A stretch of 64,000 bases of DNA from assembly GCF_001941975.2 (NCBI RefSeq), contig NZ_CP146991.1, forward strand, positions 3,841,001-3,905,000, given 5' to 3'. A model generated the notes under the pieces. It had not been told where the DNA came from. It made no database searches and was given only the letters and a program-made list of their open reading frames with translations. The DNA is from Sporomusa sphaeroides DSM 2875. Lineage in GTDB: Bacteria > Bacillota > Negativicutes > Sporomusales > Sporomusaceae. Position numbers and translations under genes: made by a program. Each line of letters starts with the position of its first letter. Position 1 is the first letter of the stretch. Shown here piece after piece: positions 1,777 through 51,045 of this stretch.

Positions 1777-2796
1777 TCACGCATCGGTTTGTCCGGCTAG
1801 TCCCTGAGCTGCCTTGGCGGCAAATTCGATGGCGGCAGTCATGCTGCCGCTGTCGGCAATCCCTTTGCCGGCGATGTCAAACGCGGTGCCGTGGTCAACC
1901 GAACTCCGGATAAACGGCAGCCCGACAGTCACATTGATACCCGAATCAAAGCCCAGAAGCTTAATGGGAATATGGCCTTGATCGTGGTACATAACGACTA
2001 CGATGTCAAACTCTTTACGCTTTGCCGCCCGGAAGAAAACGGTGTCCGGCGGGATGGGGCCGCTGGCGGCAATGCCCTCCTGCTGCGCCGCTTCCACGGC
2101 GGGAAGAATTTCGTCGATATCCTCACGCCCAAACAGGCCATTTTCACCGGCATGGGCGTTGAAACCGGCTACCGCGATGCGCGGCTTTTCCAGGCCAAGC
2201 AGCCGCAGCGTACGGTCAGCAAGCCGGATGATCCTGAGGACTCGGTCTTTTTTAATCAAATCGGCTGCCTGCCGCATGGAAACATGGGTAGTGACATGGA
2301 TGACCTTAAGGTCGTCACTGGAAAGCATCATGGCATAATCGTTGGTCTGGCTGAGCTCACCTAATATTTCTGTATGGCCCGGGAAGTGATGTCCGCCTTT
2401 GTGCAGCGCCTCTTTGTTGATCGGCGCCGTAACAATGCCAGCCACCTTTTGGTCCAAAGCCTGCCTAATGGCACCTTCAATATACTGGTAAGCCGCATGA
2501 CCGGCACGGCCGTCTACCTGACCAAAGGGCAGGTCGGCCGGTACATTGGCAAAATCAAGTACGTTAATAGTACCGTATTCATACAACCCGTTTTGCGGCT
2601 CAGCAGTGGCATGAATTTTCGCCAGGCTGTTCACAATCCCGGCCGCCATAGCCATTCTCCCGGCATCACCAAACACCAGTGGCCGGCATATCTGGTAGAT
2701 TTGTTGATCTGCCAGTGCCTTGACAATAATTTCCGGACCGCAGCCGGCCGGATCACCCATCGTAATGGCAAGAATCGGAAGCTGTTCTTTACTCAT
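1777..2796 (-). CDS. pdxA2: PdxA2-type 4-phospho-hydroxyacid dehydrogenase (D-threonate/D-erythronate 4-phosphate)
   Basis: A 339-residue PdxA-family enzyme. It shows the N-terminal MGDPAGCGPE turn, the metal-ligand histidines in HVTTHVSM, FNAHAGENG and MYHDQGHIP, and the C-terminal DHGTAFDIAGKG. PdxA proteins oxidise and decarboxylate 4-phosphorylated 3-hydroxy acids with NAD. Its gene follows, seven bases downstream, one for a DUF1537-type kinase. This pairing is the known arrangement for D-threonate or D-erythronate catabolism, in which the kinase makes the 4-phosphate and PdxA2 converts it to dihydroxyacetone phosphate. That makes vitamin B6 synthesis an unlikely role. The ribosome site GAAGGTGA lies in the end of the kinase gene. 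Confidence 0.9.
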   Translation of the reverse strand: MSKEQLPILAITMGDPAGCGPEIIVKALADQQIYQICRPLVFGDAGRMAMAAGIVNSLAKIHATAEPQNGLYEYGTINVLDFANVPADLPFGQVDGRAGHAAYQYIEGAIRQALDQKVAGIVTAPINKEALHKGGHHFPGHTEILGELSQTNDYAMMLSSDDLKVIHVTTHVSMRQAADLIKKDRVLRIIRLADRTLRLLGLEKPRIAVAGFNAHAGENGLFGREDIDEILPAVEAAQQEGIAASGPIPPDTVFFRAAKRKEFDIVVVMYHDQGHIPIKLLGFDSGINVTVGLPFIRSSVDHGTAFDIAGKGIADSGSMTAAIEFAAKAAQGLAGQTDA

Positions 2797-2803
2797 TAGC
2801 CAA

Positions 2804-4087
2804 TCACCTTCTTTGCTCCAGTTTTTTCACTGCTTTTACCAGTGCGTCAGGCGCACCGAATGCTCCGGCTTTAGTAACGACCAATAGTTGTTTCCCCTCC
2901 TGGGTGGTCATGGCACCAAGCGGAATAGCCGGTGTCACTTCTTCCAGAACGCGGATGCCGGTGACACCCAGGGCGTTGCATACAGCCACAGCCGTATCAC
3001 CGCCGGTCAGAACCACTCCGGAAATATCCTGCGCCCGCAATATTTCGGCGCCAATCCAGCCAAGAATCTGGGCCACTTTTTCGCCGACCTGCACCAGGGA
3101 CATACCCAGCTTTTCCCCGGCAGTCTGTGTCTGCTGCACCGTGTCGGCCTTGTAACCGGAGACCAGAACAATGCGCCGGCCTGCGGACAGGGACTGCTGC
3201 ACCTGCTGTAGGGTCGGATGCGGCTGGCCTGCCTGCCAGGACAAATACCCGGCAACTTCCAGTTCAATCATTTCATAGCCGGAAGCCACCAGCTGTTCTA
3301 CCTGACCGCGCGTCACAGAACTTACACTGCCGGCAATAACAAAAGCCGGCTGGCGGGTTTCTGGTTCTGCCGCCCAATGAAACAACTGCGGCAGCACTTC
3401 GGCAAGTCCGGCAGACCCGGACCAGAGGATTTTTTCTGAAAGGCTGGCTGCCGCCTGTGCAACAATAAGAAAGTGCTCGTCCTGCCAGGCATCTGAGCTG
3501 ATAATCCGGCAACCGTCATTCAGATGCCGGCGCAGGGCCTGTACAATACCTTCCTGTCCCTGTGATATATCGGCAAAATCAATATGACCGACCTTGAGGC
3601 CTGTCTGTTTTCGCAATAGTTCGGGCAGCATGGTTTCGTAAACAGGGGTTTTCGGGTCACGGGCAATTTCGGTAGTGGAGAGCGGCGCACCATTGAGCAG
3701 ATAATTGCCCCCCACAGTTATGCGCCCGTTTTTGGGGAAAGCGGGCATAACCAGGGCAAAATCATGCAGGTTCAAGTCAAGAATAGCTTTAATTTCCATG
3801 CCAACATTGCCCCTCAGGGTCGAATCCAGCTTTTTATAGTATTGGCCAAATCCGGCTGCCACCGCTTTTTGGGCGGCTTGCTGTACCCTTGCATAGGCTT
3901 CCGGGGCGGGAACGGCGCGGCTGTTTGTATCAACTACGATAATATCGGCCGTGGCTGTGGCATTGAGCGCCGCATCATTCAGCAGCACCTCCGTATGCAT
4001 ACCCTGCCGGGCGAACTGTACCCCGGTATCGTTGGCACCAGTCAGGTCGTCGGCGATAACGATCATCCCTTTGCTTGTTGCTTTCAA
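2804..4087 (-). CDS. dtnK: Four-carbon acid sugar kinase (DUF1537), D-threonate/D-erythronate kinase type
   Basis: A 427-residue protein of the four-carbon acid sugar kinase family. The N-terminal domain has the diagnostic IADDLTGANDTG motif, followed by KKLDSTLRGN; the C-terminal nucleotide-binding domain has VLTGGDTAVAVC and the glycine-rich end GAFGAPDAL. These enzymes phosphorylate the 4-hydroxyl of D-threonate or D-erythronate. I chose TTG 4087, with GGAGG about eight bases ahead; the next ATG (4066) is too far from it. The gene lies between the RpiR regulator and pdxA2 on the same strand, so it looks like one operon. Which of the four-carbon acids is the substrate cannot be read from sequence, and no dedicated transporter is adjacent. 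Confidence 0.88.
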   Translation of the reverse strand: MKATSKGMIVIADDLTGANDTGVQFARQGMHTEVLLNDAALNATATADIIVVDTNSRAVPAPEAYARVQQAAQKAVAAGFGQYYKKLDSTLRGNVGMEIKAILDLNLHDFALVMPAFPKNGRITVGGNYLLNGAPLSTTEIARDPKTPVYETMLPELLRKQTGLKVGHIDFADISQGQEGIVQALRRHLNDGCRIISSDAWQDEHFLIVAQAAASLSEKILWSGSAGLAEVLPQLFHWAAEPETRQPAFVIAGSVSSVTRGQVEQLVASGYEMIELEVAGYLSWQAGQPHPTLQQVQQSLSAGRRIVLVSGYKADTVQQTQTAGEKLGMSLVQVGEKVAQILGWIGAEILRAQDISGVVLTGGDTAVAVCNALGVTGIRVLEEVTPAIPLGAMTTQEGKQLLVVTKAGAFGAPDALVKAVKKLEQRR

Positions 4088-34944: not shown

Positions 34945-36213
34945 ATGGTGATTAACCGGCCTGCTATTGGTATTGATGTTGCTAAAGACTTTTGTGTTTA
35001 TGCTGCGGTTTCGCCCAACGGTACGATCTTATTGAATCCATTTAAAGCCTTAAATACAAAACAGGGGCTTTTTTTCGCTTTAAGGGAAATAAAAAAAGTG
35101 GAAGACGCGTTTGGTAGTAAACCGGCAATTGTCCTAGAATCGACAGGTCACTTCTCTCAACGCATTGTCCACTTTTTTTTGAAACAGGAGCTTGATGTCT
35201 TCCTCATCAATCCCCTTATTTCCCATTCTATCAAAAATTCATCGGTAAGAAAAGTAAAGACTGACCAAGTTGACGCAGTTGATTTAGCTAAATTGTTCTT
35301 TACCCAAGGGTTGCGCAACACCTATATACCCAGCGAGGCATTAGCAAATTTGAAAATATTATCGAGGACTAGGTTTCAATTAGTAGAACAACGTGCTGGT
35401 ATTTTGAATCAACTTATTGCTGCCATTGAGCAAGTTGCCCCGTTGTTCCCCAAAGTCTTCGAGCCTTCCTCCTTGACAGCGCTCACTCTGCTCACTCAGT
35501 TTCCAGCTCCTGCGCAATGGGTAAAGACTTCTAACCATAAGGCGATCCTGCAAATGTTGGAATCCCTGCCGCGACGCGGCAAAGACTATGCTCAAAAAAA
35601 GTTTAACGCTTTATTGGATTGTGCTAAAGATGCTACATTCACGGGTATTGAGCTGTCAGCCAATTTTAGGGTTATACAAATTTACGCTGACAACCTACGG
35701 TTCATGGATACCCAAATTAAAGCCATTGATGATGAAATTAATCAATGGACAGAACAACTCCCTGAAATTGCCTTGCTTAAAAGCATACCAGGTATAGGTG
35801 GAACATTGGCACCCCTTATTGTGGGAGAAATAGGCGATATCATGCGATTTACCAATGCCAAACAGCTTGTAGCTTATTGTGGAATTGATCCAACTGTACG
35901 CCAGTCCGGGAATTTTGTTGGCACCAGAAACAAAGTGACAAAAAGAGGCTCGCCTTTCTTACGAAAAGCATTATACGTTGCCGCAATAACAGCCATTCGC
36001 AAAAATCCTAATGGATCGCTCGTAAATTCAGTCATCCACGAATATTACAAAAAGAAAATTGAGTCCAAACCTAAAAAGCAAGCATTAGGTGCGGTTATGA
36101 ATAAGCTACTACGAATTATTTTTTCTGTCCTAAAAAACAAACAGCCTTTTTGTTTAATTACTTCAGAGCAGCAAGTTGCCTTGTATCAATCTCTCAGAAA
36201 AAAGGCAGCTTAA
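34945..36213 (+). CDS. IS110-family transposase (RuvC-like DEDD plus Tnp C-terminal domain)
   Basis: A 422-residue recombinase. The N-terminal DEDD domain shows IGIDVAKDF, IVLESTGHFS and VKTDQVDAVDLAK; the C-terminal domain shows SIPGIGGTLAPLIVGEIGD, then YCGIDP and TKRGSPFLRKALY with the putative serine nucleophile. All are typical of complete IS110 enzymes, and the frame is intact. TAGGAGGGG lies just ahead of the ATG. Lower GC content than the flanking genes fits recent arrival. Confidence 0.95.
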   Translation: MVINRPAIGIDVAKDFCVYAAVSPNGTILLNPFKALNTKQGLFFALREIKKVEDAFGSKPAIVLESTGHFSQRIVHFFLKQELDVFLINPLISHSIKNSSVRKVKTDQVDAVDLAKLFFTQGLRNTYIPSEALANLKILSRTRFQLVEQRAGILNQLIAAIEQVAPLFPKVFEPSSLTALTLLTQFPAPAQWVKTSNHKAILQMLESLPRRGKDYAQKKFNALLDCAKDATFTGIELSANFRVIQIYADNLRFMDTQIKAIDDEINQWTEQLPEIALLKSIPGIGGTLAPLIVGEIGDIMRFTNAKQLVAYCGIDPTVRQSGNFVGTRNKVTKRGSPFLRKALYVAAITAIRKNPNGSLVNSVIHEYYKKKIESKPKKQALGAVMNKLLRIIFSVLKNKQPFCLITSEQQVALYQSLRKKAA

Positions 36214-36760: not shown

Positions 36761-38455
36761 TGTGGGACAAGGGGACAGCAGACTGTGTGAAAAATCCTCT
36801 CACGCCCTCTAATAAAGTAGCTTAAAATACAAAATGCTAGGCAAATCGTTAACTTTTGGTTGAACTGAATAGCATCTAGCGGGATTTAGGCTAAAGCCGG
36901 AGATTTTCTAGCAGTCAATTTTGCTAATACTTCTTTCGTCCCCAGGATAGATATAACACGCCTAAGGTTATACGATAAAAAAGACAAAGAAAGCTCCCCT
37001 GTGACTGAGCGCTTACGCTTAGTCAGGAAATAATACGCTCCCCATCCTCGTTTAATTGTTCCAAAAACATGTTCAATGATCATTTGCCGTAATCGGTATT
37101 TATCTTTATTTTTCTCAGTCTTTAGATTAATCGTATCTAAAAAGTCTTGGTCTATATGCCGAAAGATACTTCGACCCTTTGCACTTCGAGTACAGCGTTC
37201 TTTTACCGGACAAGAGGAACAGGCTGCATAATTTCGGTATTCGTAACCAATAACGCCTTTTTCCTTACTGGTTCTCTTCTTGGCAAAATATAACTCAATT
37301 CCTCTGGGACACCGATATATATTTTCCTCTGCGTCGTAATGAAACTTATCCGGGTAAAACTCTTTATCTCCGGTCCCGTTCGAATATGTTTGTTTCGCGA
37401 CATACGGAGTGATATGATTTTTTACGCATGTTTTGAGGTCGTCAACCTTGTAATATCCTTTATCTGCTACCACTTCGAGCTCTTTTTTTTCAAGCACCAC
37501 TTGGGCACGCAAGGCCATGTTAGCTAACTCACCCAAATCGTTGGCCTGTGTTGTTACTTTGAAGTCTGCCACTAATTTGTGTTTGGCATCGACTGTGGTC
37601 TGTACATTGTAGCCTACATCTACTGTATTATTGTTATTGGACATAAGTCGAGCATCCGGGTCTGTTGTAGAGACTTCACTGCAGCCTTTTTTATCTATCG
37701 TTTCTTGATAAGCCTGATAGGTTTGTTTTCGATTACGAAGTTCTTGAATTCGCTGTTGTACTTCTTGTACCGACAGCTTACGTTCCTGAGTCTCCGCGTT
37801 ATCCGTTGTCTCTAGTTCTTTCATATAGGTTTCAATTTTTTCATCGATATACCGGATATGACGTTCCAGTTTTTTGGCACTATAATTATTCTTTTTGCTA
37901 TTACAAGCTCGCATTTTAGTCCCATCAATCGCCACTAACTCTTTGCCATATAGGCCCCATTCATCGCACAGGCGTACGAACTGGCGAAACACCTTTTTGA
38001 GGGCGAGTTTATTATTTTTGCGAAAGTCCGCAATGGTTTTATAATCTGGTTTTAGTTTTTGCAATAGCCAGATGACTTCTAGGTTTCGTGCTGCTTCTTG
38101 CTCAAGCCTGCGCGATGAGCGGACCCGGTTTAAATAGCCGTATAAGTATAATTTTAATAAGACTTTTGGGTTATAGGGAGGGCGCCCGAAAGTGGGGCTA
38201 GTCGATCGCTCAAATGCCAGTTCCAACACATCAAGCTGTTCCACGAACGCATCTATAATGCGAACTGGATTATCTTCGTGGACGTAATCGTCGATACTTT
38301 CGGGAAGCAAAATTGTTTGTCCTCTTTCTTCGCCTTTTATATAGCCCATACTCTCACCTTCTCAATCAGTATACAACTATATTTTAACATATTTGTAATT
38401 TCATATAATTTTTAAATGCACTTTTCACACAGTCTGACAGGTTCCTTGTCCCACA
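36761..38455 (-). mobile_element. IS1182-type insertion sequence, 1.7 kb
   Basis: Terminal inverted repeats of about 37 bases bound one transposase gene. Left: TGTGGGACAAGG at 36761, then CAGACTGTGTGAAAA inward; right: the same two blocks reading inward from 38455, with a different middle (AACCTGT against GGACAG). Shared T-runs outside make the exact ends uncertain by a few bases, and I see no clear target duplication. The element is complete and probably active. Confidence 0.85.
36886..38349 (-). CDS. IS1182-family transposase
   Basis: A 487-residue DDE transposase. It starts with the family's N-terminal domain (ILLPESIDDYVHEDNPVRIIDAF and, later, GRPPYNPKVLLKLYLYG), has a long charged linker (about 150-205), and continues with the DDE core (VVADKGYY, a C-x2-C...C zinc-like cluster around CSSCPVKERC, and EHVFGTIKRGWG). 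The frame is intact, with no frameshift. Confidence 0.93.
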   Translation of the reverse strand: MGYIKGEERGQTILLPESIDDYVHEDNPVRIIDAFVEQLDVLELAFERSTSPTFGRPPYNPKVLLKLYLYGYLNRVRSSRRLEQEAARNLEVIWLLQKLKPDYKTIADFRKNNKLALKKVFRQFVRLCDEWGLYGKELVAIDGTKMRACNSKKNNYSAKKLERHIRYIDEKIETYMKELETTDNAETQERKLSVQEVQQRIQELRNRKQTYQAYQETIDKKGCSEVSTTDPDARLMSNNNNTVDVGYNVQTTVDAKHKLVADFKVTTQANDLGELANMALRAQVVLEKKELEVVADKGYYKVDDLKTCVKNHITPYVAKQTYSNGTGDKEFYPDKFHYDAEENIYRCPRGIELYFAKKRTSKEKGVIGYEYRNYAACSSCPVKERCTRSAKGRSIFRHIDQDFLDTINLKTEKNKDKYRLRQMIIEHVFGTIKRGWGAYYFLTKRKRSVTGELSLSFLSYNLRRVISILGTKEVLAKLTARKSPALA

Positions 38456-41663: not shown

Positions 41664-42515
41664 TTATTCGGCCAGAAGCTTTTCCAGCTCTGCAATCTCT
41701 TTTTCATCCATTTTGTAGGTATGCTCAGTATCCACCGGGAATTGGCCTTCCCGTACCTCCATTGTGTATTCTCGGAACGCATTTGTCAGAGTTTCGCCAA
41801 TATTGGCATATTTCTTAACAAACTTCGGGGTAAAATTGTCATAGAAACCGACCATATCGGCGTATATCAGCAATTGCCCATGGGTAAAGGAGCCTGCGCC
41901 TATGCCGAGAATGGGAATTCCCGCCTGTTCCGCAATGGCTTTGCCAACGGCTGTGGGCACTCCTTCCACCAAAATACTGCAGGCGCCCGCCTCTTCAATA
42001 AGCTTGGCCTGCCGGATCAGACTCATTGCCGCCTGTGCCGTTTTTCCCTGCGCTTTGTAACCGCCGATCTGGCCCATAAATTGCGGTGTAAGACCGATAT
42101 GCCCCATGACAAGTATGCCGGCCCCGCTTATAGCCTGAATGCGGTTTAAAATCTGCGCGCCGCCTCCCTCCAGCTTAACGCAGTCCGAGGCGGCCTCCTT
42201 AATAAATCTGCCGGCATTTTCGATGGCTGACACATCGGAAGCCTGGTAAGACATATACGGCATATCACCGATAATGAAGGTATTGGGAGCACCCCGGCGA
42301 ACGGCCTGGCAATGACGGATCATGTCATCCATGGTTACCGGAAAAGTAGTGTCATAGCCCAGGGAAACCATCCCCAGAGAATCCCCGACAAGAATCATAT
42401 CCACGCCCGCTTTTTCCTGCATCTTGGCAGTGAGGTAATCATAAGCGGTCAGATAAACAATTTTTTCCCCTTTGCTGACCATGTTTTGAAAGTCCAGAAT
42501 GGTTTTTTTAGCCAA
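41664..42515 (-). CDS. panB: PanB-family hydroxymethyltransferase in a sigma-54 TTT regulon
   Basis: A 283-residue ketopantoate hydroxymethyltransferase homologue. The magnesium ligands (VGDSLGM and IGDMPYMSY) and the catalytic glutamate (VEGVP) are kept, followed by GIGAG. PanB interconverts 2-oxoisovalerate plus methylene-THF and ketopantoate. I take TTG 42515, with AAAGGAAG seven bases ahead, since ATG 42533 is itself part of that ribosome site and has none of its own; the shorter form also lines up with Bacillus PanB. It is not beside panC or panD but follows a TctC gene in a transporter operon, so it may work in a degradative direction. Confidence 0.85.
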   Translation of the reverse strand: MAKKTILDFQNMVSKGEKIVYLTAYDYLTAKMQEKAGVDMILVGDSLGMVSLGYDTTFPVTMDDMIRHCQAVRRGAPNTFIIGDMPYMSYQASDVSAIENAGRFIKEAASDCVKLEGGGAQILNRIQAISGAGILVMGHIGLTPQFMGQIGGYKAQGKTAQAAMSLIRQAKLIEEAGACSILVEGVPTAVGKAIAEQAGIPILGIGAGSFTHGQLLIYADMVGFYDNFTPKFVKKYANIGETLTNAFREYTMEVREGQFPVDTEHTYKMDEKEIAELEKLLAE

Positions 42516-42567
42516 TTTGTTTCTTCCTTTCATTGTTTATTAACAGCCTACAGATAGAAAATCCTTA

Positions 42568-43560
42568 TTACTGGGCGGCTATCTCTTTAAGGATGTCGGC
42601 ATATTTTTGGTTTTCCCCGGCCAAAAATGTTTTATATTCTTCCGGCTCCAGGAAATGCTCGGTTAAACCGTTTTTCGCCAAATAGTCTTTTTTCCACTGT
42701 TCGGTCTGAGTTGCTTTTCTAAAGGTTTCCACCCAGAATTTCACCGCTTCCGGCGACATATCGGGAGGTCCTGCTATACCACGGAACTGTTGGAATACAA
42801 CATCTTTATAGCCAAGTTCCCCAAAGGTGGGAGTATCCTTAAACACACCATCCAGTCTCTTTACGCCGAAGCCGCCTAATGTGGCTACTTTGCCGGCGGC
42901 TATCTGGGCATTGCATTCATTGGGATTAAATATGCCGGCTTTTATGTGGCCGCCCAGCATGGCACTCATGACTTCCCCGGAGCTGTTGAAGGGAACATAT
43001 TTAAACTTAGCCCCTGTGTACTTGTTAAGCAGCCCGACACACAACTCATCTTCAGTGCCTTTTCCCGAACCGCCTATAGTGATTTCATCGGGAGCAGCTT
43101 TTGCCGCGGCAAGCATTTCTGCAAAGTTTTTGTAATTATCTGACAAAATTCCGAGCAAGTATTCGTCCAGTGCAAGGTTTGCTATGGGCGTCAGCTTATC
43201 ATAGCTTACAGCTGTTTTATTCATCAGATTGGAGGTCATTTGTCCGGAAACGTAAGCAGTAATTACATGACTATCCCCCTTTTTGGAAAAGGTATACGCA
43301 TCACCTACCGCACCGGCACCACCCGGTTTGTTTACAATCATCACCGCTTCGTTAGCAAACTTGTTCTTCTGGATAATCTCCGCCAGGGTACGGGCAAAAA
43401 GGTCGCTGCCGCCACCGGGGGCATACGGGACAATAAATTCCGCGTTTTTACTAAGCGCAAACGCTGCCTGCTTGTCCGGAGCCTTTTCCTGCGAGCCGCA
43501 ACCTGCCACCAAACCAGCCAACATAAGACAAGCCACTACTACTGCCAACCACTTTTTCAT
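42568..43560 (-). CDS. tctC: TctC/Bug-family solute-binding lipoprotein
   Basis: A 330-residue tripartite tricarboxylate transporter receptor. The lipobox is LVAGC (Cys21), followed by the family blocks FIVPYAPGGGSD, VMIVNKPGGAGAVG and KYVPFNSSGE. It would deliver a carboxylate to the membrane pair TctA/TctB encoded at 47934-49904. Gene order is split: tctC is on one side of the activator gene, tctBA on the other. GAGGAGG precedes the ATG. Confidence 0.93.
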   Translation of the reverse strand: MKKWLAVVVACLMLAGLVAGCGSQEKAPDKQAAFALSKNAEFIVPYAPGGGSDLFARTLAEIIQKNKFANEAVMIVNKPGGAGAVGDAYTFSKKGDSHVITAYVSGQMTSNLMNKTAVSYDKLTPIANLALDEYLLGILSDNYKNFAEMLAAAKAAPDEITIGGSGKGTEDELCVGLLNKYTGAKFKYVPFNSSGEVMSAMLGGHIKAGIFNPNECNAQIAAGKVATLGGFGVKRLDGVFKDTPTFGELGYKDVVFQQFRGIAGPPDMSPEAVKFWVETFRKATQTEQWKKDYLAKNGLTEHFLEPEEYKTFLAGENQKYADILKEIAAQ

Positions 43561-43693: not shown

Positions 43694-44320
43694 CTAACGC
43701 TTTGCAATTTCTGTGATTAGCTTTGCCGCACGGTCTGTATTAAATATACCACACATACAGGGCTTAAATAATTCATCTGCCGCCGCCTGAGCCGTTATTT
43801 TTCCTTTTTTCACTTTTTCAATCATTTCAATAATAAAATTTGCCGATACCATAGCATGACCGCACATAGTTGCAATTTCCAGTATTTCCTGCGGGGGCAG
43901 TTTCTCTCTTTTTCCCCATCTTCCCAGAGAATGTTCCACGGTATGGGGTTTAAGACCTGTTTTCGAGCAGCATTCCCCCACCTCGTCCACTAAGCCGGAA
44001 ATCACGATGGAGAGCCCCAAATCCGCTTGCTTCAAATCTTCAATCATGTCAATTACTGCATCTTTATTATTAAAGGTTGCGGTAACAACAGCACGGTCTT
44101 CCACATTATTGAGCATATTTTCCCGGCTGAGCTGGTGATATTCATTGCCTTTTCTGCAATCGCCCAAAGTCACGCAGTCATTTTTCAAACATAATTCCAA
44201 AAATTTTCTGAGTTTGGGTCCTGATTCCTCGTGATTAATATCCTTGCTGGGCATACAGAGAAACACCCAGTCTCCCTGCAAACTCTCTCTGCTTCCTACC
44301 CGGTGAAGTGTGTGTGTCAT
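43694..44320 (-). CDS. Unrecognised conserved-looking protein, cysteine-rich
   Basis: A 208-residue protein that I do not recognise. It has no signal peptide or membrane segment. Ten cysteines are scattered through it, including LCLKND-C-V, GDC, GECC near the middle and KPCMCG near the C-terminus, enough for an iron-sulfur cluster or metal site. A stretch VTATFNNKDAVIDMIEDL and VISGLVDEVGE suggests an alpha/beta domain. The gene lies two bases after the ferredoxin-like gene, with GGGAGGA inside that gene's end, so the two products are probably made together and may form one enzyme. Confidence 0.8.
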   Translation of the reverse strand: MTHTLHRVGSRESLQGDWVFLCMPSKDINHEESGPKLRKFLELCLKNDCVTLGDCRKGNEYHQLSRENMLNNVEDRAVVTATFNNKDAVIDMIEDLKQADLGLSIVISGLVDEVGECCSKTGLKPHTVEHSLGRWGKREKLPPQEILEIATMCGHAMVSANFIIEMIEKVKKGKITAQAAADELFKPCMCGIFNTDRAAKLITEIAKR

Positions 44321-44322
44321 GA

Positions 44323-45045
44323 CTATTCCTCCCTCACTAGCGGCCTGCCGAGACCAATATTTACTTTACCGTTTGGCGACATCCACATTCCATCCTCTTC
44401 AACAATTTTTACATGAGGAATAACGCCATCGCCGGTAACCTTGGAGCAAATATCCAGACTGAACACTGTATCAAGGGCCGGCGCCACTTCTTTAAGAATT
44501 TGCAAAATTACGGGCGCTTTCTCTTCCCTCACCCCAAATTCAATAATGGCGGAAAGCACTTTTTCATTTAACAGTTCGTCCTTAAACTTTCCGGTAGCCG
44601 TATCGGACATCATACTGGTAATCGGGTTTTCTTTTTCAAATTCAACATTTTCTTTGGCAACAGCCATTGCAATTTTTTCCACATCATACATACGGGTGGC
44701 AACACCCGGGCGGCCCAGTTCGATAGCAATTCCGATCCAGCCCTTTTTAAACCGCCCTGTAACCTCGTTGGTCTTCATTTCCTCGGTGCCGCGGCCGGAT
44801 ATCTGGGACTCCTCGGCAATGGTGAGTACATCGCTCATAATGCTCCGGATGGTCCGTGGCCATGTTAATTCCTGCTGATAAAGAGAATCTGTCGGACAAA
44901 CCCTTAAACGCTGGCACACCCCACATTCCACGCACTCATCAAAGTCAATCAGCACTTGCTTTGCTGCGTCTCTCACAATAGCCGAAACAGGACATTTGGT
45001 TATGCATAAACCACAGTTGACACATGTTTCTTTGTTAATTTCCAT
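44323..45045 (-). CDS. Ferredoxin-like protein with unrecognised C-terminal domain
   Basis: A 240-residue protein. The first 55 residues are a two-cluster ferredoxin: CVNCGLCITKCP and CVECGVCQRLRVCP, the second with one extra residue before the last cysteine. The remaining 180 residues show no family I know; GRPGVATRMYDVEKIAMAVA and FSLDICSKVTGDGVIPH may be strand-helix units, and the end repeats a GLGRP motif (NIGLGRPLV). It is the first gene behind a perfect sigma-54 promoter and probably carries electrons for a redox step in the pathway. AAGGAGGAG precedes the ATG. Confidence 0.85.
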   Translation of the reverse strand: MEINKETCVNCGLCITKCPVSAIVRDAAKQVLIDFDECVECGVCQRLRVCPTDSLYQQELTWPRTIRSIMSDVLTIAEESQISGRGTEEMKTNEVTGRFKKGWIGIAIELGRPGVATRMYDVEKIAMAVAKENVEFEKENPITSMMSDTATGKFKDELLNEKVLSAIIEFGVREEKAPVILQILKEVAPALDTVFSLDICSKVTGDGVIPHVKIVEEDGMWMSPNGKVNIGLGRPLVREE

Positions 45046-45225: not shown

Positions 45226-45242
45226 TGCAAAATCCGTGCCAA
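45226..45242 (-). promoter_or_regulatory. Sigma-54 promoter of the ferredoxin-like/tctC/panB operon
   Basis: Read on the minus strand, TTGGCACG-GATT-TTGCA matches the RpoN consensus at every fixed position (GG and GC ten bases apart). Transcription should start near 45214, about 170 bases ahead of the ferredoxin-like gene. Confidence 0.9.
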
Positions 45243-45249
45243 TAGTAAA

Positions 45250-45299
45250 AATATAAACATAAGACGCCGGGTAATGGCCCGGCGTCTTATGTTTATATT
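45250..45299. terminator. 22-bp hairpin between the activator gene and the sigma-54 promoter
   Basis: A perfect 22-bp stem with a six-base loop lies 3' of the activator gene and seven bases upstream of the -24 box. It is probably a terminator that protects the sigma-54 promoter from read-through. Confidence 0.8.
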
Positions 45300-45380: not shown

Positions 45381-47294
45381 TTACATTTCCTTTAACCACC
45401 GCCATAATGTCGTCCTGCTGATGCCAAGTTTGGCTGCAGCTTTAGCGTAATGATAATTTACATCCTGAAGCACTTCGAGCAGGATGGCTTTATCCAGTTT
45501 TTGCTTAGATTTAGCGGTATACAGTGATGGTTCACTGCTTTTTGCCGCGTTTACCTCCAGGCCGGCAGCCAAAGCATCTTTTTCCGGGTTAAAGGCGGAC
45601 AAAACATCCTCTTTGGTGATCGTGTCACTGTAGGCAATTACCGCCAGGCGCTCTGCAATATTCATCAGTTCCCGGACATTGCCCGGCCAGGAATACCGGT
45701 CCAGCAATAGTTGCGCAGCCGGCTCAATTGTCTTATCAGGCTTGCCAAAACGCGAGCAGTAGGAGTGCAAAAAATATTCAAACAGCTGCAGTACATCCCC
45801 CGTCCGTTCCCGCAAGGGCGGAACATGCAGTTCCAAGACATCCAGCCGATAGTAAAGATCCGGGCGAAAGGCCTTTTCCCGGATCATTTCCCCCAAATCC
45901 CGGTTGGTCGCCGCTATGACCCGTACGTCTATCGGAATGATCTTACGATCGCCCAGGCGCATGATCTCCCGTTCCTGCAATACCCGCAGCAGGCGCCCCT
46001 GCATTTTAATCGAAATTTCCGATATCTCATCAAGAAAGATTGTTCCTTTATGGGCCAGTTCAAATAAGCCTGCCTTACCTTCTTTGGCGGCTCCCGTAAA
46101 GGCTCCGCCGACATAGCCAAAAAGCTCGCTTTCCAGCAGATTCTCCGGCAAAGCCGCGCAATTAAAGGCTACAAACGGACCGGCCGCTCTGTCACTGGCA
46201 CTATGGATGCTTTGAGAAAACATTTCCTTACCGGCTCCGGTTTCGCCGACAATAAGCACATTAGAGTCAACAGCGCTGTATTCTTTGGCTATCTCAATCG
46301 CGCGCCCAATAGCCCTGCTTTTGCCAAAAATATTAGAAAAGGAAAATTTGGCACTGTGCCCCTGAGGATAAATTTTCCGTCTGATTTTTCCTTCCAGTTC
46401 CTGAATGCTGGAAACCGGCTGGAAGGTGGCAATGGCTCCCACAACCTGTCCTTTTACGGCAATGGGCGCATTATTAATGATTACCTGCCTGTCCCCCAAG
46501 GTTTTAATTTCGCCCACTTCGGCTACTCCTGTCGCCAGAACCCTGCCCAGGCGCAATTCCGGCAAAACCTTATCTGCCGGTTTACCTTCCATTTTACCCT
46601 CCAGCCCGGTTATTTCCGTTGCGGACGCATTGATTAAATTAATATTGCCCTGTTCATTTACAGCCACTACACCCTCAATGGCATAATCAAGAATGGTACG
46701 AAATCTTTCGCTTCGCTCCTGTTCCTGCTTTTTGACAAAATAGGTCCGTTTGGCCTCAATCAAAGCCTGATAAATGGCTTCCCGCCCGGTTTTTATGAAA
46801 ACAGTTTTCAGCCCAATTTGTTCGGCAATACGGGTTGACACAACCCCGCCACAGACTATAGTAATGCCGCCATTTTTAATGGCGGTTAAACTTTTTCGCG
46901 CAGCTTCCTCATTATCCACAATACTGGTGACAATTTCAATCCCGGTGATCTCGTTGATGCTGCGGGCGCCATACACCATGTCTTCTGTGCCGACAATAGC
47001 CACCCGCTGCGATTTATACCGGGTCTGGCATTCCAAAACCGCACGGATAACATCATAGCCGCTGACAGGCAAACGAATCACCGGAATATCCTCCATAACC
47101 CGTTCTGCCATAGAGGCAGTCATCCCCCGGGCGACAACAACATCGGTTTTGAGCTTCTTATAATCAATCCGCCGCGGTACCCCGTCAATAGCCAAAAGCT
47201 CAATTGTCCAGTTACAATCGTTTTGCTGGGTAAAAACCTCCTGAATGTCCTCAAAAATATCTGAGTACGGAACCATAAAAGTGATTTTAGCCAT
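45381..47294 (-). CDS. Sigma-54-dependent activator with PrpR-N sensor and PAS domain
   Basis: A 637-residue enhancer-binding protein. Order: PrpR-type N-terminal sensor (about 1-190), PAS domain (about 195-310), AAA+ domain (about 325-560) with Walker A GETGAGKE, the sigma-54 contact loop GAFTGA and arginine-rich sensor FRPDLYYRL, and a Fis-type helix-turn-helix at the end (AAAKLGISRTTLWRWL). PrpR-N domains bind small carboxylate-type effectors in related activators. The gene lies between two operons with sigma-54 promoters and so is their probable regulator. GAGGTGAAAA precedes the ATG. Confidence 0.93.
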   Translation of the reverse strand: MAKITFMVPYSDIFEDIQEVFTQQNDCNWTIELLAIDGVPRRIDYKKLKTDVVVARGMTASMAERVMEDIPVIRLPVSGYDVIRAVLECQTRYKSQRVAIVGTEDMVYGARSINEITGIEIVTSIVDNEEAARKSLTAIKNGGITIVCGGVVSTRIAEQIGLKTVFIKTGREAIYQALIEAKRTYFVKKQEQERSERFRTILDYAIEGVVAVNEQGNINLINASATEITGLEGKMEGKPADKVLPELRLGRVLATGVAEVGEIKTLGDRQVIINNAPIAVKGQVVGAIATFQPVSSIQELEGKIRRKIYPQGHSAKFSFSNIFGKSRAIGRAIEIAKEYSAVDSNVLIVGETGAGKEMFSQSIHSASDRAAGPFVAFNCAALPENLLESELFGYVGGAFTGAAKEGKAGLFELAHKGTIFLDEISEISIKMQGRLLRVLQEREIMRLGDRKIIPIDVRVIAATNRDLGEMIREKAFRPDLYYRLDVLELHVPPLRERTGDVLQLFEYFLHSYCSRFGKPDKTIEPAAQLLLDRYSWPGNVRELMNIAERLAVIAYSDTITKEDVLSAFNPEKDALAAGLEVNAAKSSEPSLYTAKSKQKLDKAILLEVLQDVNYHYAKAAAKLGISRTTLWRWLKEM

Positions 47295-47933: not shown

Positions 47934-48377
47934 ATGAAAATTGCGCTTAATGCCGATCGGGTAATTGCAATTCTTTGCGGTCTTGTCGGAGGATTCTGGG
48001 CATATTCCGGCTGGTTTAATTATGGCTTTTGGGTAAATAAAGGTCCCGGCCCGGGGTTTATCCCGGTGATTGTCGGTATAGTAACGTGCATTCTCGCTGC
48101 TGTACAAACACAAAATTATGACAAAGAAGCAGAACCGGTAGATGTAAAAGCAATTCTGCCGATTGCCGCCATGATTGCTTTTACGATATCTGTCAGTATA
48201 ATCGGATTTTTGCCTACCGTATTTTTGTTTTTGGTCCTCTGGCTGATCACCCAGGGTTCCTATTCCCGTACTTTTTCCGTTTCTCTTGCCGCGATAGCGA
48301 CCGGACTCATCTGGGGAATCTTTGAATACTGGCTGCAAGTGCCCTTTCCCGGCGGCCTGATAAAATCATTATTGTAG
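47934..48377 (+). CDS. tctB: Tripartite tricarboxylate transporter small membrane protein TctB
   Basis: A 147-residue protein with four hydrophobic segments; the N-terminal WVNKGPGPGFIP after the first helix is the TctB mark. It partners TctA in sodium- or proton-driven carboxylate import. GGAGGAGAG precedes the ATG. tctA begins fifteen bases after its stop. Confidence 0.92.
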   Translation: MKIALNADRVIAILCGLVGGFWAYSGWFNYGFWVNKGPGPGFIPVIVGIVTCILAAVQTQNYDKEAEPVDVKAILPIAAMIAFTISVSIIGFLPTVFLFLVLWLITQGSYSRTFSVSLAAIATGLIWGIFEYWLQVPFPGGLIKSLL

Positions 48378-48392
48378 AAAGGAGCTTACACT

Positions 48393-49904
48393 ATGGAAGA
48401 AATATTCTCTCATTTGTTGAACGGCTTTGGGCTCGCATTGACGGAAAAGAATTTGATGGCCGCACTGGCCGGCGCCGTTATGGGCATGTTTGTCGGAGCT
48501 TTGCCCGGTATCGGTTCGGTTATGGGCGTAGCCCTGCTCCTGCCGCTGACTTTCAAAATGGATCCAACCACAGCAATTATTATGCTGGCCGCTTTATACT
48601 ATTCAACCATGTTTGCCGGCTCCTTCACAGCCATCTTAATCAACATCCCGGGCGATCCTCCGGCAGTAATGACCACCATGGACGGCTATCAGCTGACATT
48701 GAGGGGCAAAGCCGGCAAAGCACTGGCGGTGTCTAACTGGTCTTCTTTTGTCGCCGGGTTTATCGGTGTTGTCATCCTTACCTTTATGGGTCCCCTGCTT
48801 GCCAATGTGGGGCTGGCTTTTGGACCGGCCGAAATGACGTCGGTTATATTGCTGGCAATTATGGCCATTGCCTGGCTGCTGGGCGACAATCCCCGCAAAG
48901 GGCTGCTTTCCACCTGCCTGGGAATTCTGCTGGCAACAGTAGGGCTGGACCTGGCTGTTGCTATGCCCCGTTTTTCCTTCGGTGTAAATGAACTCTTAAG
49001 CGGTATTGATTTTATCCCCCTGGTTATCGGCCTCTTGGGAGTAAACGAAATTGTGACCATGGCGCTGAACAAAACCGGTTACCAATTTAAAACAACAGAA
49101 AAACTGTCTTTACGAAGCAATTATCTCAACTGGCAGGAAATCAAGCAAATTTTCCGGCCAACCATGGTTAGCAGCTTTATGGGGACTTTTGTCGGCTGTA
49201 TTCCGGGCGCAGGCACAACAACCGCCTCGTTTTTAGCCTACGTTTTGGAAAAACGTACCGGCAAAAATAAGGAAAACATGGGCAAGGGCGCGCTGGAAGG
49301 TGTCGCCGCTCCGGAAGCGGCTAATAATGCGGCAGCGGCAGGCGCTTTTGCGCCCTTGCTGTCTTTGGGAATTCCCAGTTCGGGAACAGCGGCCATATTG
49401 CTGGGCGGCCTAATGATGTGGGGCATTACGCCGGGACCGCTGCTCTTTACCGACCACCCCGATCTTGCCTGGGGCCTGATTGCCTCCATGTACACCGGCA
49501 ACGTTGTCTGTATGATTATCGCAGCCCTCAGCATTCCTTTAATGGTCCACGCCTTGCGCATCCCTCCCGCCATACTGACCCCGATCATCATTGTAATCTG
49601 TATTGTGTCCGCGTACTCTGTCAACAATAGTCTTTTTGACATTTGGATAATGATTGCCATCGGCATTGTCGGCTACTTCTTTAACCGTTACAAATATCCG
49701 GTAGCTCCGTTTTTGATGGCTTTCATCCTGACTCCCCGGCTGGAAACATCGCTGCGTCAGGCTTTTGATATCTCTAACGGCAATGCCATGATTTTTATTG
49801 ACAAGCCCATTTCACTGGCATTTTTAACTGCCATTCTGCTCTTCTTCGTTGTGCCGCCATGCATTAAATTTGGTAGAACCTGCTTTGCTAAAAAGGACCT
49901 GTAG
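48393..49904 (+). CDS. tctA: Tripartite tricarboxylate transporter large membrane protein TctA
   Basis: A 503-residue protein with about a dozen hydrophobic segments. The two glycine-rich family loops are present: GALPGIGSVMGVALLLPLTF near the start and CIPGAGTTTASFLAY in the middle, plus AGAFAPLLSLGIPSSGTAA. It is the permease of the TctABC system; the receptor TctC is encoded 5 kb away across the regulator. Substrate unknown. Confidence 0.95.
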   Translation: MEEIFSHLLNGFGLALTEKNLMAALAGAVMGMFVGALPGIGSVMGVALLLPLTFKMDPTTAIIMLAALYYSTMFAGSFTAILINIPGDPPAVMTTMDGYQLTLRGKAGKALAVSNWSSFVAGFIGVVILTFMGPLLANVGLAFGPAEMTSVILLAIMAIAWLLGDNPRKGLLSTCLGILLATVGLDLAVAMPRFSFGVNELLSGIDFIPLVIGLLGVNEIVTMALNKTGYQFKTTEKLSLRSNYLNWQEIKQIFRPTMVSSFMGTFVGCIPGAGTTTASFLAYVLEKRTGKNKENMGKGALEGVAAPEAANNAAAAGAFAPLLSLGIPSSGTAAILLGGLMMWGITPGPLLFTDHPDLAWGLIASMYTGNVVCMIIAALSIPLMVHALRIPPAILTPIIIVICIVSAYSVNNSLFDIWIMIAIGIVGYFFNRYKYPVAPFLMAFILTPRLETSLRQAFDISNGNAMIFIDKPISLAFLTAILLFFVVPPCIKFGRTCFAKKDL

Positions 49905-50021: not shown

Positions 50022-50061
50022 AACAAATAGTTAACTCTATAAAATGAGGAGGAATACCGTC

Positions 50062-51045
50062 ATGAAACCACTGCTAGGTATTTTACTGGGTGACGCAACA
50101 GGCATCGGGCCGGAACTTGTTGCCAAGTTATGCAGCACTGCTAAACTGCGGATGTATTGCCGGCCAGTCTTGATTGGCGATCTGCGGGTGCTGGAAATGG
50201 GAAAAAAGATTGCAAAAACAGACTTTCCGGTTGTTGTAATTGATGATATCTCTCAGGCCAGTTGGGACAACGGCCTTCCTGTATTAGACCAGAGAAACCT
50301 TGATCCTGCTACTATAACATTAGGGAAAATTGACAAACTTTCCGGAAAAATCACCGGTGACATGTTGGTTACGGCAATAAACCTGCTTCGCCGGGATGCT
50401 CTTGACGGCTTTGTTTATGCACCGCTAAATAAGGCAGCACTGCAATACGGGGGCTATGATTTTGAGGATGAACAGCAACTATTTGCCCATTATCTGGACT
50501 GGCATGGCCCGAGCAGTGAGATGAATGTCTTAAAAAACCTTTGGACATCACGGGTCACAAGCCATATCCCTTTGGAGCAGGTATGTGCCAGTCTAACTAC
50601 TGACACCATTTTGACAGCCATCCGTCTGGCCCATCAAACCCTGCAAAAAGCAGGCTTTCAGGACCCGCGCATTGCTGTTGCCGCCGTAAATCCGCATGCC
50701 GGCGAGGATGGGCTGTGCGGGCGCCAGGAGATTGACATCATCGCCCCTGCCCTCCGGCTTGCCCGGGCGGAAGGCATAAACGTCATGGGCCCCTATCCGT
50801 CAGATACCATTTTCATTAACGCGTTTAAAGGACATTATAATGCCGTAGTTACCATGTTCCACGACCAGGGGCAGATTGCGCTAAAGCTGCTGGGCTTCCA
50901 GTTTGGCGTGACGGTTGCCGCCGGTTTACCGTATGCCATCACGACCCCGGCTCACGGCACTGCCTTTGATATCGCCGGCTTTGGGCTCGCCAATCCGAGT
51001 GCGACCGAGCAGGCCGTGTTGATTGCTGCCAGACTGGCCGGGTAG
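50062..51045 (+). CDS. pdxA: PdxA-family hydroxyacid dehydrogenase (second copy)
   Basis: A 327-residue PdxA homologue. The metal histidines lie in RVTSHIPL, VNPHAGEDG and FHDQGQIALKLLGF, and the C-terminus reads AHGTAFDIAGFG. It differs from the copy at 1777 and lacks a kinase partner. ATG 50062 has GAGGAGGAA ahead. In this operon it likely oxidises, and may decarboxylate, an acid brought in by TctABC or a product of it; vitamin B6 synthesis is less likely given the surroundings. Some PdxA relatives act on diol acids (as TphB does), so an unphosphorylated substrate is possible. Confidence 0.85.
   Translation: MKPLLGILLGDATGIGPELVAKLCSTAKLRMYCRPVLIGDLRVLEMGKKIAKTDFPVVVIDDISQASWDNGLPVLDQRNLDPATITLGKIDKLSGKITGDMLVTAINLLRRDALDGFVYAPLNKAALQYGGYDFEDEQQLFAHYLDWHGPSSEMNVLKNLWTSRVTSHIPLEQVCASLTTDTILTAIRLAHQTLQKAGFQDPRIAVAAVNPHAGEDGLCGRQEIDIIAPALRLARAEGINVMGPYPSDTIFINAFKGHYNAVVTMFHDQGQIALKLLGFQFGVTVAAGLPYAITTPAHGTAFDIAGFGLANPSATEQAVLIAARLAG

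Follow-up and report, generated by a model that had tools for sequence, protein, structure and literature searches.

A widespread two-gene pair beside an acid importer of Sporomusa sphaeroides: a candidate ferredoxin-linked iron-sulfur enzyme of an undescribed family

The DNA analysed here (the window) is a 64-kb stretch of the Sporomusa sphaeroides DSM 2875 genome. On its minus strand an activator gene is followed by a terminator-like stem, a sigma-54 element, a 240-aa gene, a 208-aa gene, TctC and PanB. The genes for TctB, TctA and a PdxA-family protein form an operon that is divergent to that of the pair. The products of the 240-aa and 208-aa genes are referred to as the large and the small subunit. 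The features of the locus are:

41664..42533, minus strand: PanB paralogue (ketopantoate hydroxymethyltransferase family; Pfam, NCBIfam, tree)
42568..43560, minus strand: TctC solute-binding protein (PF03401, E 5.3e-26)
43694..44320, minus strand: small subunit, 208 aa, nine cysteines (ORF; without a known family)
43751..43759, minus strand: C188-M189-C190 of the small subunit (cysteines in 89/89 and, with one gap, 88/88)
43856..43867, minus strand: M152-C153-G154-H155 of the small subunit (invariant, 89-row alignment)
44323..45045, minus strand: large (ferredoxin) subunit, 240 aa (ORF; relatives)
44443..44745, minus strand: ACT/ferredoxin-like alpha+beta domain, large-subunit residues 101-201 (predicted model)
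44752..44796, minus strand: large-subunit residues 84-98, GRGTEEMKTNEVTGR (invariant G84, R85, G86, E89 and K91)
44878..45045, minus strand: 2[4Fe-4S] ferredoxin domain, large-subunit residues 1-56 (Pfam Fer4 families)
45226..45241, minus strand: perfect sigma-54 -24/-12 element TGGCACGGATTTTGCA (TGGCAC-N5-TTGCA)
45251..45298, no strand assigned: terminator-like hairpin of 20 bp between the activator gene and the promoter (20 pairs counted)
45381..47294, minus strand: sigma-54-dependent activator (PrpR_N, PAS, AAA+ and Fis-type HTH; Pfam)
47934..48377, plus strand: TctB, divergent operon (PF07331)
48393..49904, plus strand: TctA (PF01970)
50044..51045, plus strand: PdxA-family dehydrogenase (PF04166)

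The sequence-only reading had placed the two genes two bases apart and first behind a perfect sigma-54 promoter, near TctC and PanB, and the coordinates, the exact motif and the gene order bear this out. The element is the sole exact match in the 64-kb window, where 0.15 are expected and 15 of 100 shuffles contain at least one. Because the terminator-like stem splits this promoter from the activator gene, the pair probably heads its own transcription unit. The activator is nearest to PrdR/PrpR in NCBIfam, under the cut-offs. Elsewhere in the window (1777-4087, minus strand) a second PdxA-family gene lies beside a 427-aa ORF that appears by eye to be a DUF1537-type four-carbon acid kinase. Two ORFs that look transposase-like by eye (34945-36213, plus strand; 36886-38349, minus strand) lie a few kb off the operon. 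Together with the patchy occurrence of the pair in the genus, these ORFs hint that the region around the operon is mobile.

The large subunit begins with a ferredoxin module. Residues 1-56 match Fer4_21 (E 3.9e-9, 36.9 bits against a cut-off of 35), and it is this part alone that combines two CxxCxxCxxxC-type motifs with a Fer4 score above cut-off, as a 2[4Fe-4S] ferredoxin should. The cysteines C8, C11, C14, C18 and C38, C41, C44, C50 are kept in 95 to 97 of 97 relatives. Pfam and NCBIfam returned Fer4-type and other ferredoxin-bearing models on the N-terminal part only, and the 184 residues beyond residue 56 had no credible match in either collection. When 97 C-terminal parts (residues 58-240) were compared with Pfam-A at E up to 0.1, 14 families were matched by one member each (best 0.0025). 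The C-terminal profile gave chance-level matches to PDB sequences (best 0.0071). The earlier description of a ferredoxin module followed by about 180 residues of no known family was accurate.

The small subunit of the window has no match in Pfam, NCBIfam or the PDB sequences. Compared with Pfam, 89 small subunits gave scattered weak matches, the best being 0.0045 among the 25 of 36 families listed; with NCBIfam the matches were likewise scattered and weak (best 0.003 among the 25 of 26 families listed). Their profile matched PDB sequences at chance level. Neither window protein matched the IlvD/EDD domains (ILVD_EDD_N/C) or the Fe-S L-serine dehydratase, IspG and IspH domains of Pfam at E up to 1. 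A profile comparison of the two subunits gave no support for a common origin (probability 1.2). The proposal of an unrecognised family stands, as neither C-terminal part matched a described family in the Pfam, NCBIfam or PDB profile searches.

The 208-aa protein contains nine cysteines (22, 44, 49, 55, 117, 118, 153, 188 and 190) and not the ten first counted. In the 89-row alignment the only cysteines without variation are C153, C188 and C190, and H155 is invariant too. C118 is kept in 76/89, C117 in 57/89 and the four other cysteines in at most 20/89, while H3, H6 and H126 are almost invariant. The invariance of C153, H155, C188 and C190, set against the four cysteines kept in so few relatives, points to a catalytic site, and these residues are the predicted metal site of the small subunit. 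A joint metal site had been drawn from repeated GRPGVA and GLGRPLV segments and the CC/CMC motifs. Both segments are present inside conserved blocks, but what they hold is glycine and arginine and no ligand for a metal, and no evidence for an internal repeat emerged. The two cysteines of CMC (188-190) are both invariant, whereas CC (117-118) is only conserved in part. The site in that form is not supported; C153, H155, C188 and C190 are the candidate ligands.

The single-chain models have a mean pLDDT of 89.9 (large subunit) and 94.2 (small subunit). Large-subunit residues 97-203 superpose on the ACT domain of aspartokinase 2hmf (Z 6.9, 80 residues, rmsd 3.0; VIA-align), the ferredoxin domain superposes with Z up to 7.9, and the N-terminal half of the small subunit has a PII-like/ferredoxin-like fold (Z about 5, VIA-align). 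These middling matches (Z 5 to 8, VIA-align) are to common folds and indicate no function. Foldseek returned no match for either model at E up to 0.001, and the absence of a family from the lists excludes nothing. The least confident blocks of the large subunit, 81-90 (confidence 61) and 231-240, carry the strongly conserved G84, R85, G86 and E89 and G231-G233. Residues 1-10 are the least confident block of the small subunit, yet T2, H3 and H6 are strongly conserved. This coincidence of conservation and low confidence is as expected of loops that become ordered by the partner subunit.

Of 119 large-subunit ORFs, 103 have the small-subunit gene as their downstream neighbour, in most cases with an overlap or a gap of a few bases. 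The remaining 16 are without an adjacent small-subunit ORF under a mechanical ORF choice; at least three of them lie at a sequence end and two are short fragments. In five further stretches a small-subunit gene follows all seven large-subunit matches, always in a separate frame. Three long frames (424, 631 and 350 aa) around small-subunit matches were considered as subunit fusions and rejected, the large subunit being in another reading frame. At one locus (L056:4873-9342) the pair occurs three times in a row, the copies having diverged from one another. Of 112 collected pairs, six that had identical sequence ends were removed, and the tree and the counts are based on the remaining 106 distinct pairs. 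Their distance matrices give a mirror r of 0.80 against a shuffle maximum of 0.12 (500 shuffles), and by this measure the two partners coevolve. At the level of sequence, the genes form a widespread pair that, beyond its ferredoxin domain, gave no credible match in Pfam, NCBIfam or the PDB sequences.

A search with the small subunit was positive in 26 of the 398 genomes sampled from the host's phylum and in 14 of 60 host relatives, including 2 of the 9 genus genomes (host counted). Positive genomes also occur in the phylum of a Dethiosulfatarculus locus (25/247), the phylum of a Dehalococcoides-labelled locus (7/201) and the class of an Acetobacteraceae-labelled locus (4/337, two marginal). 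The copy number reaches nine matches in one genome, one being a fragment. A large-subunit scan of genome contigs yielded 59 loci with titles from Bacillota, Synergistales, Desulfobacterales, Chloroflexi, Gemmatimonadota, Methylomirabilota, Terriglobia and others, and the gene had no match in plasmid records. The closest pair, 90% identical and from the same genus (L168), is in an operon of identical make-up, PanB and PdxA included.

Within 8 kb of the 106 distinct pairs the neighbours include TctA (48), TRAP DctM (15), HIBDH (16), FNOR (16), Zn-ADH (15), AFOR (14), PanB (13), CODH-like proteins (12) and PdxA (11); the counts are approximate, as they rest on a mechanical ORF choice, single-linkage clusters and Pfam on one representative per scanned cluster. 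Of the co-occurrence with PanB and TctC that the sequence-only reading had proposed as a check, that with PanB is real without being general (13/106 within 8 kb), and TctC accompanies 48/106. The smallest gene runs consist of an importer and the pair alone (for example L058, L115, L118 and L127). Because of these gene sets the suggestion that the pair is the committed enzyme of the pathway is plausible, and it is retained as a candidate role.

The neighbours were also mapped on a quickly built tree of the concatenated subunits, and their changes were compared with 200 shuffles. PdxA, HIBDH, Zn-ADH, CODH-like, FNOR, TctA, the sigma-54 activator, GntR and ALDH follow the tree, with 0/200 shuffles as low in each case; for TctA there are 19 changes against 34.9 in the shuffles. 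PanB (10 changes against 12.4, 4/200 shuffles as low) and the amidohydrolase (1/200) follow it weakly. AFOR and DctM do not follow it (26/200 and 36/200). As most neighbours track the pair phylogeny, the subfamilies look substrate-specific with exchangeable helpers, and the weak tracking of PanB and lack of tracking of AFOR and DctM suggest that partners are swapped freely.

At certain loci the pair is accompanied by enzymes of the 3-HIBDH family, for which 2-hydroxymethylglutarate dehydrogenase is the top match in the PDB, and by amidohydrolases. Because of these neighbours, a possible relationship to the 6-hydroxynicotinate reductase of Eubacterium barkeri was considered, an enzyme that is mentioned in the accessible portion of PMC3511419. 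In the alphaproteobacterial sample the pair occurs as separate genes with no fused protein. One amidohydrolase neighbour is of the Xaa-Pro dipeptidase type, and enamidase is not among the matches listed. In two loci (L053:2621-5573 and L126) a 496-aa ORF with CoA-binding and CoA-ligase domains is followed by a second ORF of 496 aa, and an M42 peptidase and an amidohydrolase stand immediately before the pair. No relevant publication came up in literature searches on the pair, its operon, pantoate fermentation or the action of PanB on 4-hydroxy-2-oxobutanoate.

In one part of the pair tree a CooF/HydN-like ferredoxin, a CODH-like protein of 422-526 aa and FNOR are found beside the pair. Five loci of host relatives (L169:3741-8357, L173, L174, L178 and L179) have the short CODH-like protein, FNOR and the pair in one gene run; a CooF-like ferredoxin is usual in these runs and an NlpA-type lipoprotein gene lies upstream in three of the five. 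Two other CODH-like proteins (L055:5246-6739, 497 aa; L069:5020-6690, 556 aa) have just 5 and 7 cysteines, which seems insufficient for the customary set of clusters. The accessible portions of two papers describe mini-CooS, a short divergent Ni-CODH-like protein from Thermosinus (PMC8776680), and CODH/CooF/FNOR gene clusters (PMC6344411), and in these portions the pair is not mentioned. A literature search for mini-CooS found PMC8776680 alone. The short CODH-like proteins beside the pair may be mini-CooS.

The host genome encodes seven PanBs, window copy included, five IlvD/EDD genes and two acetyl-CoA synthase (CdhC) genes. The window PanB scores 311.5 bits against the NCBIfam panB equivalog cut-off of 207.55 and has the Pantoate_transf domain. 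The seven are at L163:11858-12691, L163:12706-13569, L164:9893-10744, L165, L166, L167 and window positions 41664-42533. Two that are 78% identical to the window copy follow IlvD/EDD genes, one directly and one after a more distant PanB. At one site two PanBs stand in tandem behind an IlvD/EDD gene and are followed by a gene for a LarA-type racemase. In a tree of 20 PanB rows (midpoint root for drawing only), a branch with support 97 has on one side all pair-linked PanBs, the two IlvD/EDD-linked copies and one further host copy, and three other host copies lie across it. Most of the host PanB paralogues look catabolic.

IlvD/EDD enzymes convert dihydroxy acids to 2-oxo-3-deoxy acids, and PanB is able to use 4-hydroxy-2-oxobutanoate. 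Since IlvD/EDD genes precede the 78% identical PanBs, and IlvD/EDD enzymes make 2-oxo acids, the pair probably delivers a 2-oxo acid of the same type by different chemistry. PanB would then free the hydroxymethyl group of the 2-oxo acid as methylene-THF.

Our best explanation, to which we assign a probability of about 0.5, is that the two subunits form one iron-sulfur enzyme, linked to ferredoxin and from an undescribed family, which acts first on an imported hydroxy-acid and feeds a 2-oxo acid to PanB. A small hydroxy-carboxylate would be imported by TctABC and the pair would perform the first chemical step. The 2[4Fe-4S] domain of the large subunit would swap electrons with ferredoxin and its ACT-like domain would pack on the alpha+beta domain of like fold in the small subunit, in which C153, H155, C188 and C190 would bind the catalytic metal. 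The likeliest form of this metal would be an iron-sulfur cluster bound by three cysteines, with one coordination position left open. The product would be a 2-oxo acid with a hydroxymethyl group, which PanB would take off as methylene-tetrahydrofolate for the Wood-Ljungdahl pathway of the acetyl-CoA-synthase-bearing host. The small hydroxy-acid class of substrate is suggested by the TctA and DctM importers, PanB, PdxA, HIBDH and Zn-ADH near the pairs. A redox role is suggested by the near-complete retention of the eight ferredoxin cysteines together with the CooF/HydN-type ferredoxin, FNOR, CODH-like and AFOR genes nearby. That the subunits form a complex, that electrons are transferred, the type of cluster, the substrate and the direction of the reaction are all inferred.

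A weak point of this explanation is that a dehydratase would account for the place before PanB without electron transfer. As the main rival, the pair would be a redox-neutral iron-sulfur hydroxy-acid dehydratase in the stead of IlvD/EDD, converting an imported 2,3-dihydroxy acid to a 2-oxo acid for PanB, and the ferredoxin domain would just keep the cluster reduced. The gene runs that two close host PanB paralogues (78% identity) share with preceding IlvD/EDD genes fit this proposal, and a module as small as an importer and the pair suits a one-step entry to central metabolism. Dehydratases with a site-differentiated [4Fe-4S] cluster usually bind it through three cysteines, the number that is invariant here. 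However, a dehydratase has no need for eight near-invariant ferredoxin cysteines or for recurring redox genes, and the window proteins match no dehydratase family. We consider the dehydratase rather unlikely. That two additional [4Fe-4S] clusters are conserved almost completely, and that redox genes lie nearby, tips us towards the ferredoxin-linked oxidoreductase, at roughly even odds.

The wide variation of partners, with no single constant enzyme, would also fit an accessory electron carrier, or an activating or assembly factor, that serves changing enzymes (PanB, PdxA, AFOR, CODH-like) without a substrate of its own. This is improbable, as the smallest modules have no partner enzyme in the run, and as the presence of up to nine matches per genome and of subfamilies that track the importer type (the 19 against 34.9 changes of TctA, 0/200) suggests substrate specificity. 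Pantothenate or coenzyme A supply, with PanB, PdxA and the pair as biosynthetic enzymes, would accord with a PanB above the NCBIfam equivalog cut-off but is very improbable given six further PanBs in the host, an activator and importer that imply catabolic induction, and no PanC or PanD among the eight operon proteins scanned.

The ferredoxin-linked reading can be taken further, and we do so tentatively. The pair may represent a new class of ferredoxin-dependent enzyme with a cluster held by C153/C188/C190 and H155 between the alpha+beta domains of its two subunits. In anaerobes of many phyla it may have multiplied, up to about nine copies per genome, as the enzyme by which imported hydroxy-acids generally enter metabolism. 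In acetogens the one-carbon units would pass through catabolic PanB to the Wood-Ljungdahl pathway, and in other lineages the pair would be coupled to CODH-like/CooF/FNOR systems.

A two-subunit metal enzyme family that is multi-copy in many genomes would on this account be absent from Pfam and NCBIfam. Since the pair heads acid-uptake operons, predicting the diet of these anaerobes requires knowledge of its reaction. Its association with PanB suggests that hydroxymethyl groups of acids enter one-carbon metabolism by a route not yet recognised, and the CODH-like link offers a lead on the role of CODH-like proteins.

Several known systems resemble parts of the pair. Large-subunit residues 1-56, with their two cysteine sets, are like the bacterial 2[4Fe-4S] ferredoxins (Pfam Fer4; FwdF, PorD, RnfB and DPD types), but in the pair this domain is fused to 184 undescribed residues and the small-subunit gene is nearly always next to it. 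The superposition of residues 97-203 on the ACT domains of aspartokinase reflects a common fold and points to no ligand site or sequence relation. IlvD/EDD hydroxy-acid dehydratases precede host PanBs 78% identical to that of the window and thus occupy the place of the pair, but they are one chain of 576 aa and not two of 240 and 208 aa, and there is no sequence match. IspG/IspH and the Fe-S serine dehydratases bind their cluster through three cysteines and leave one site open. The pattern of C153/C188/C190 may be likened to theirs by analogy only, as the window protein has no Pfam match to them. The window operon is without any gene of the mini-CooS and CODH/CooF/FNOR clusters, as these appear in the accessible portions of PMC8776680 and PMC6344411, whereas many other members of the pair family have a short CODH-like protein (422-526 aa), a CooF-like ferredoxin and FNOR beside them.
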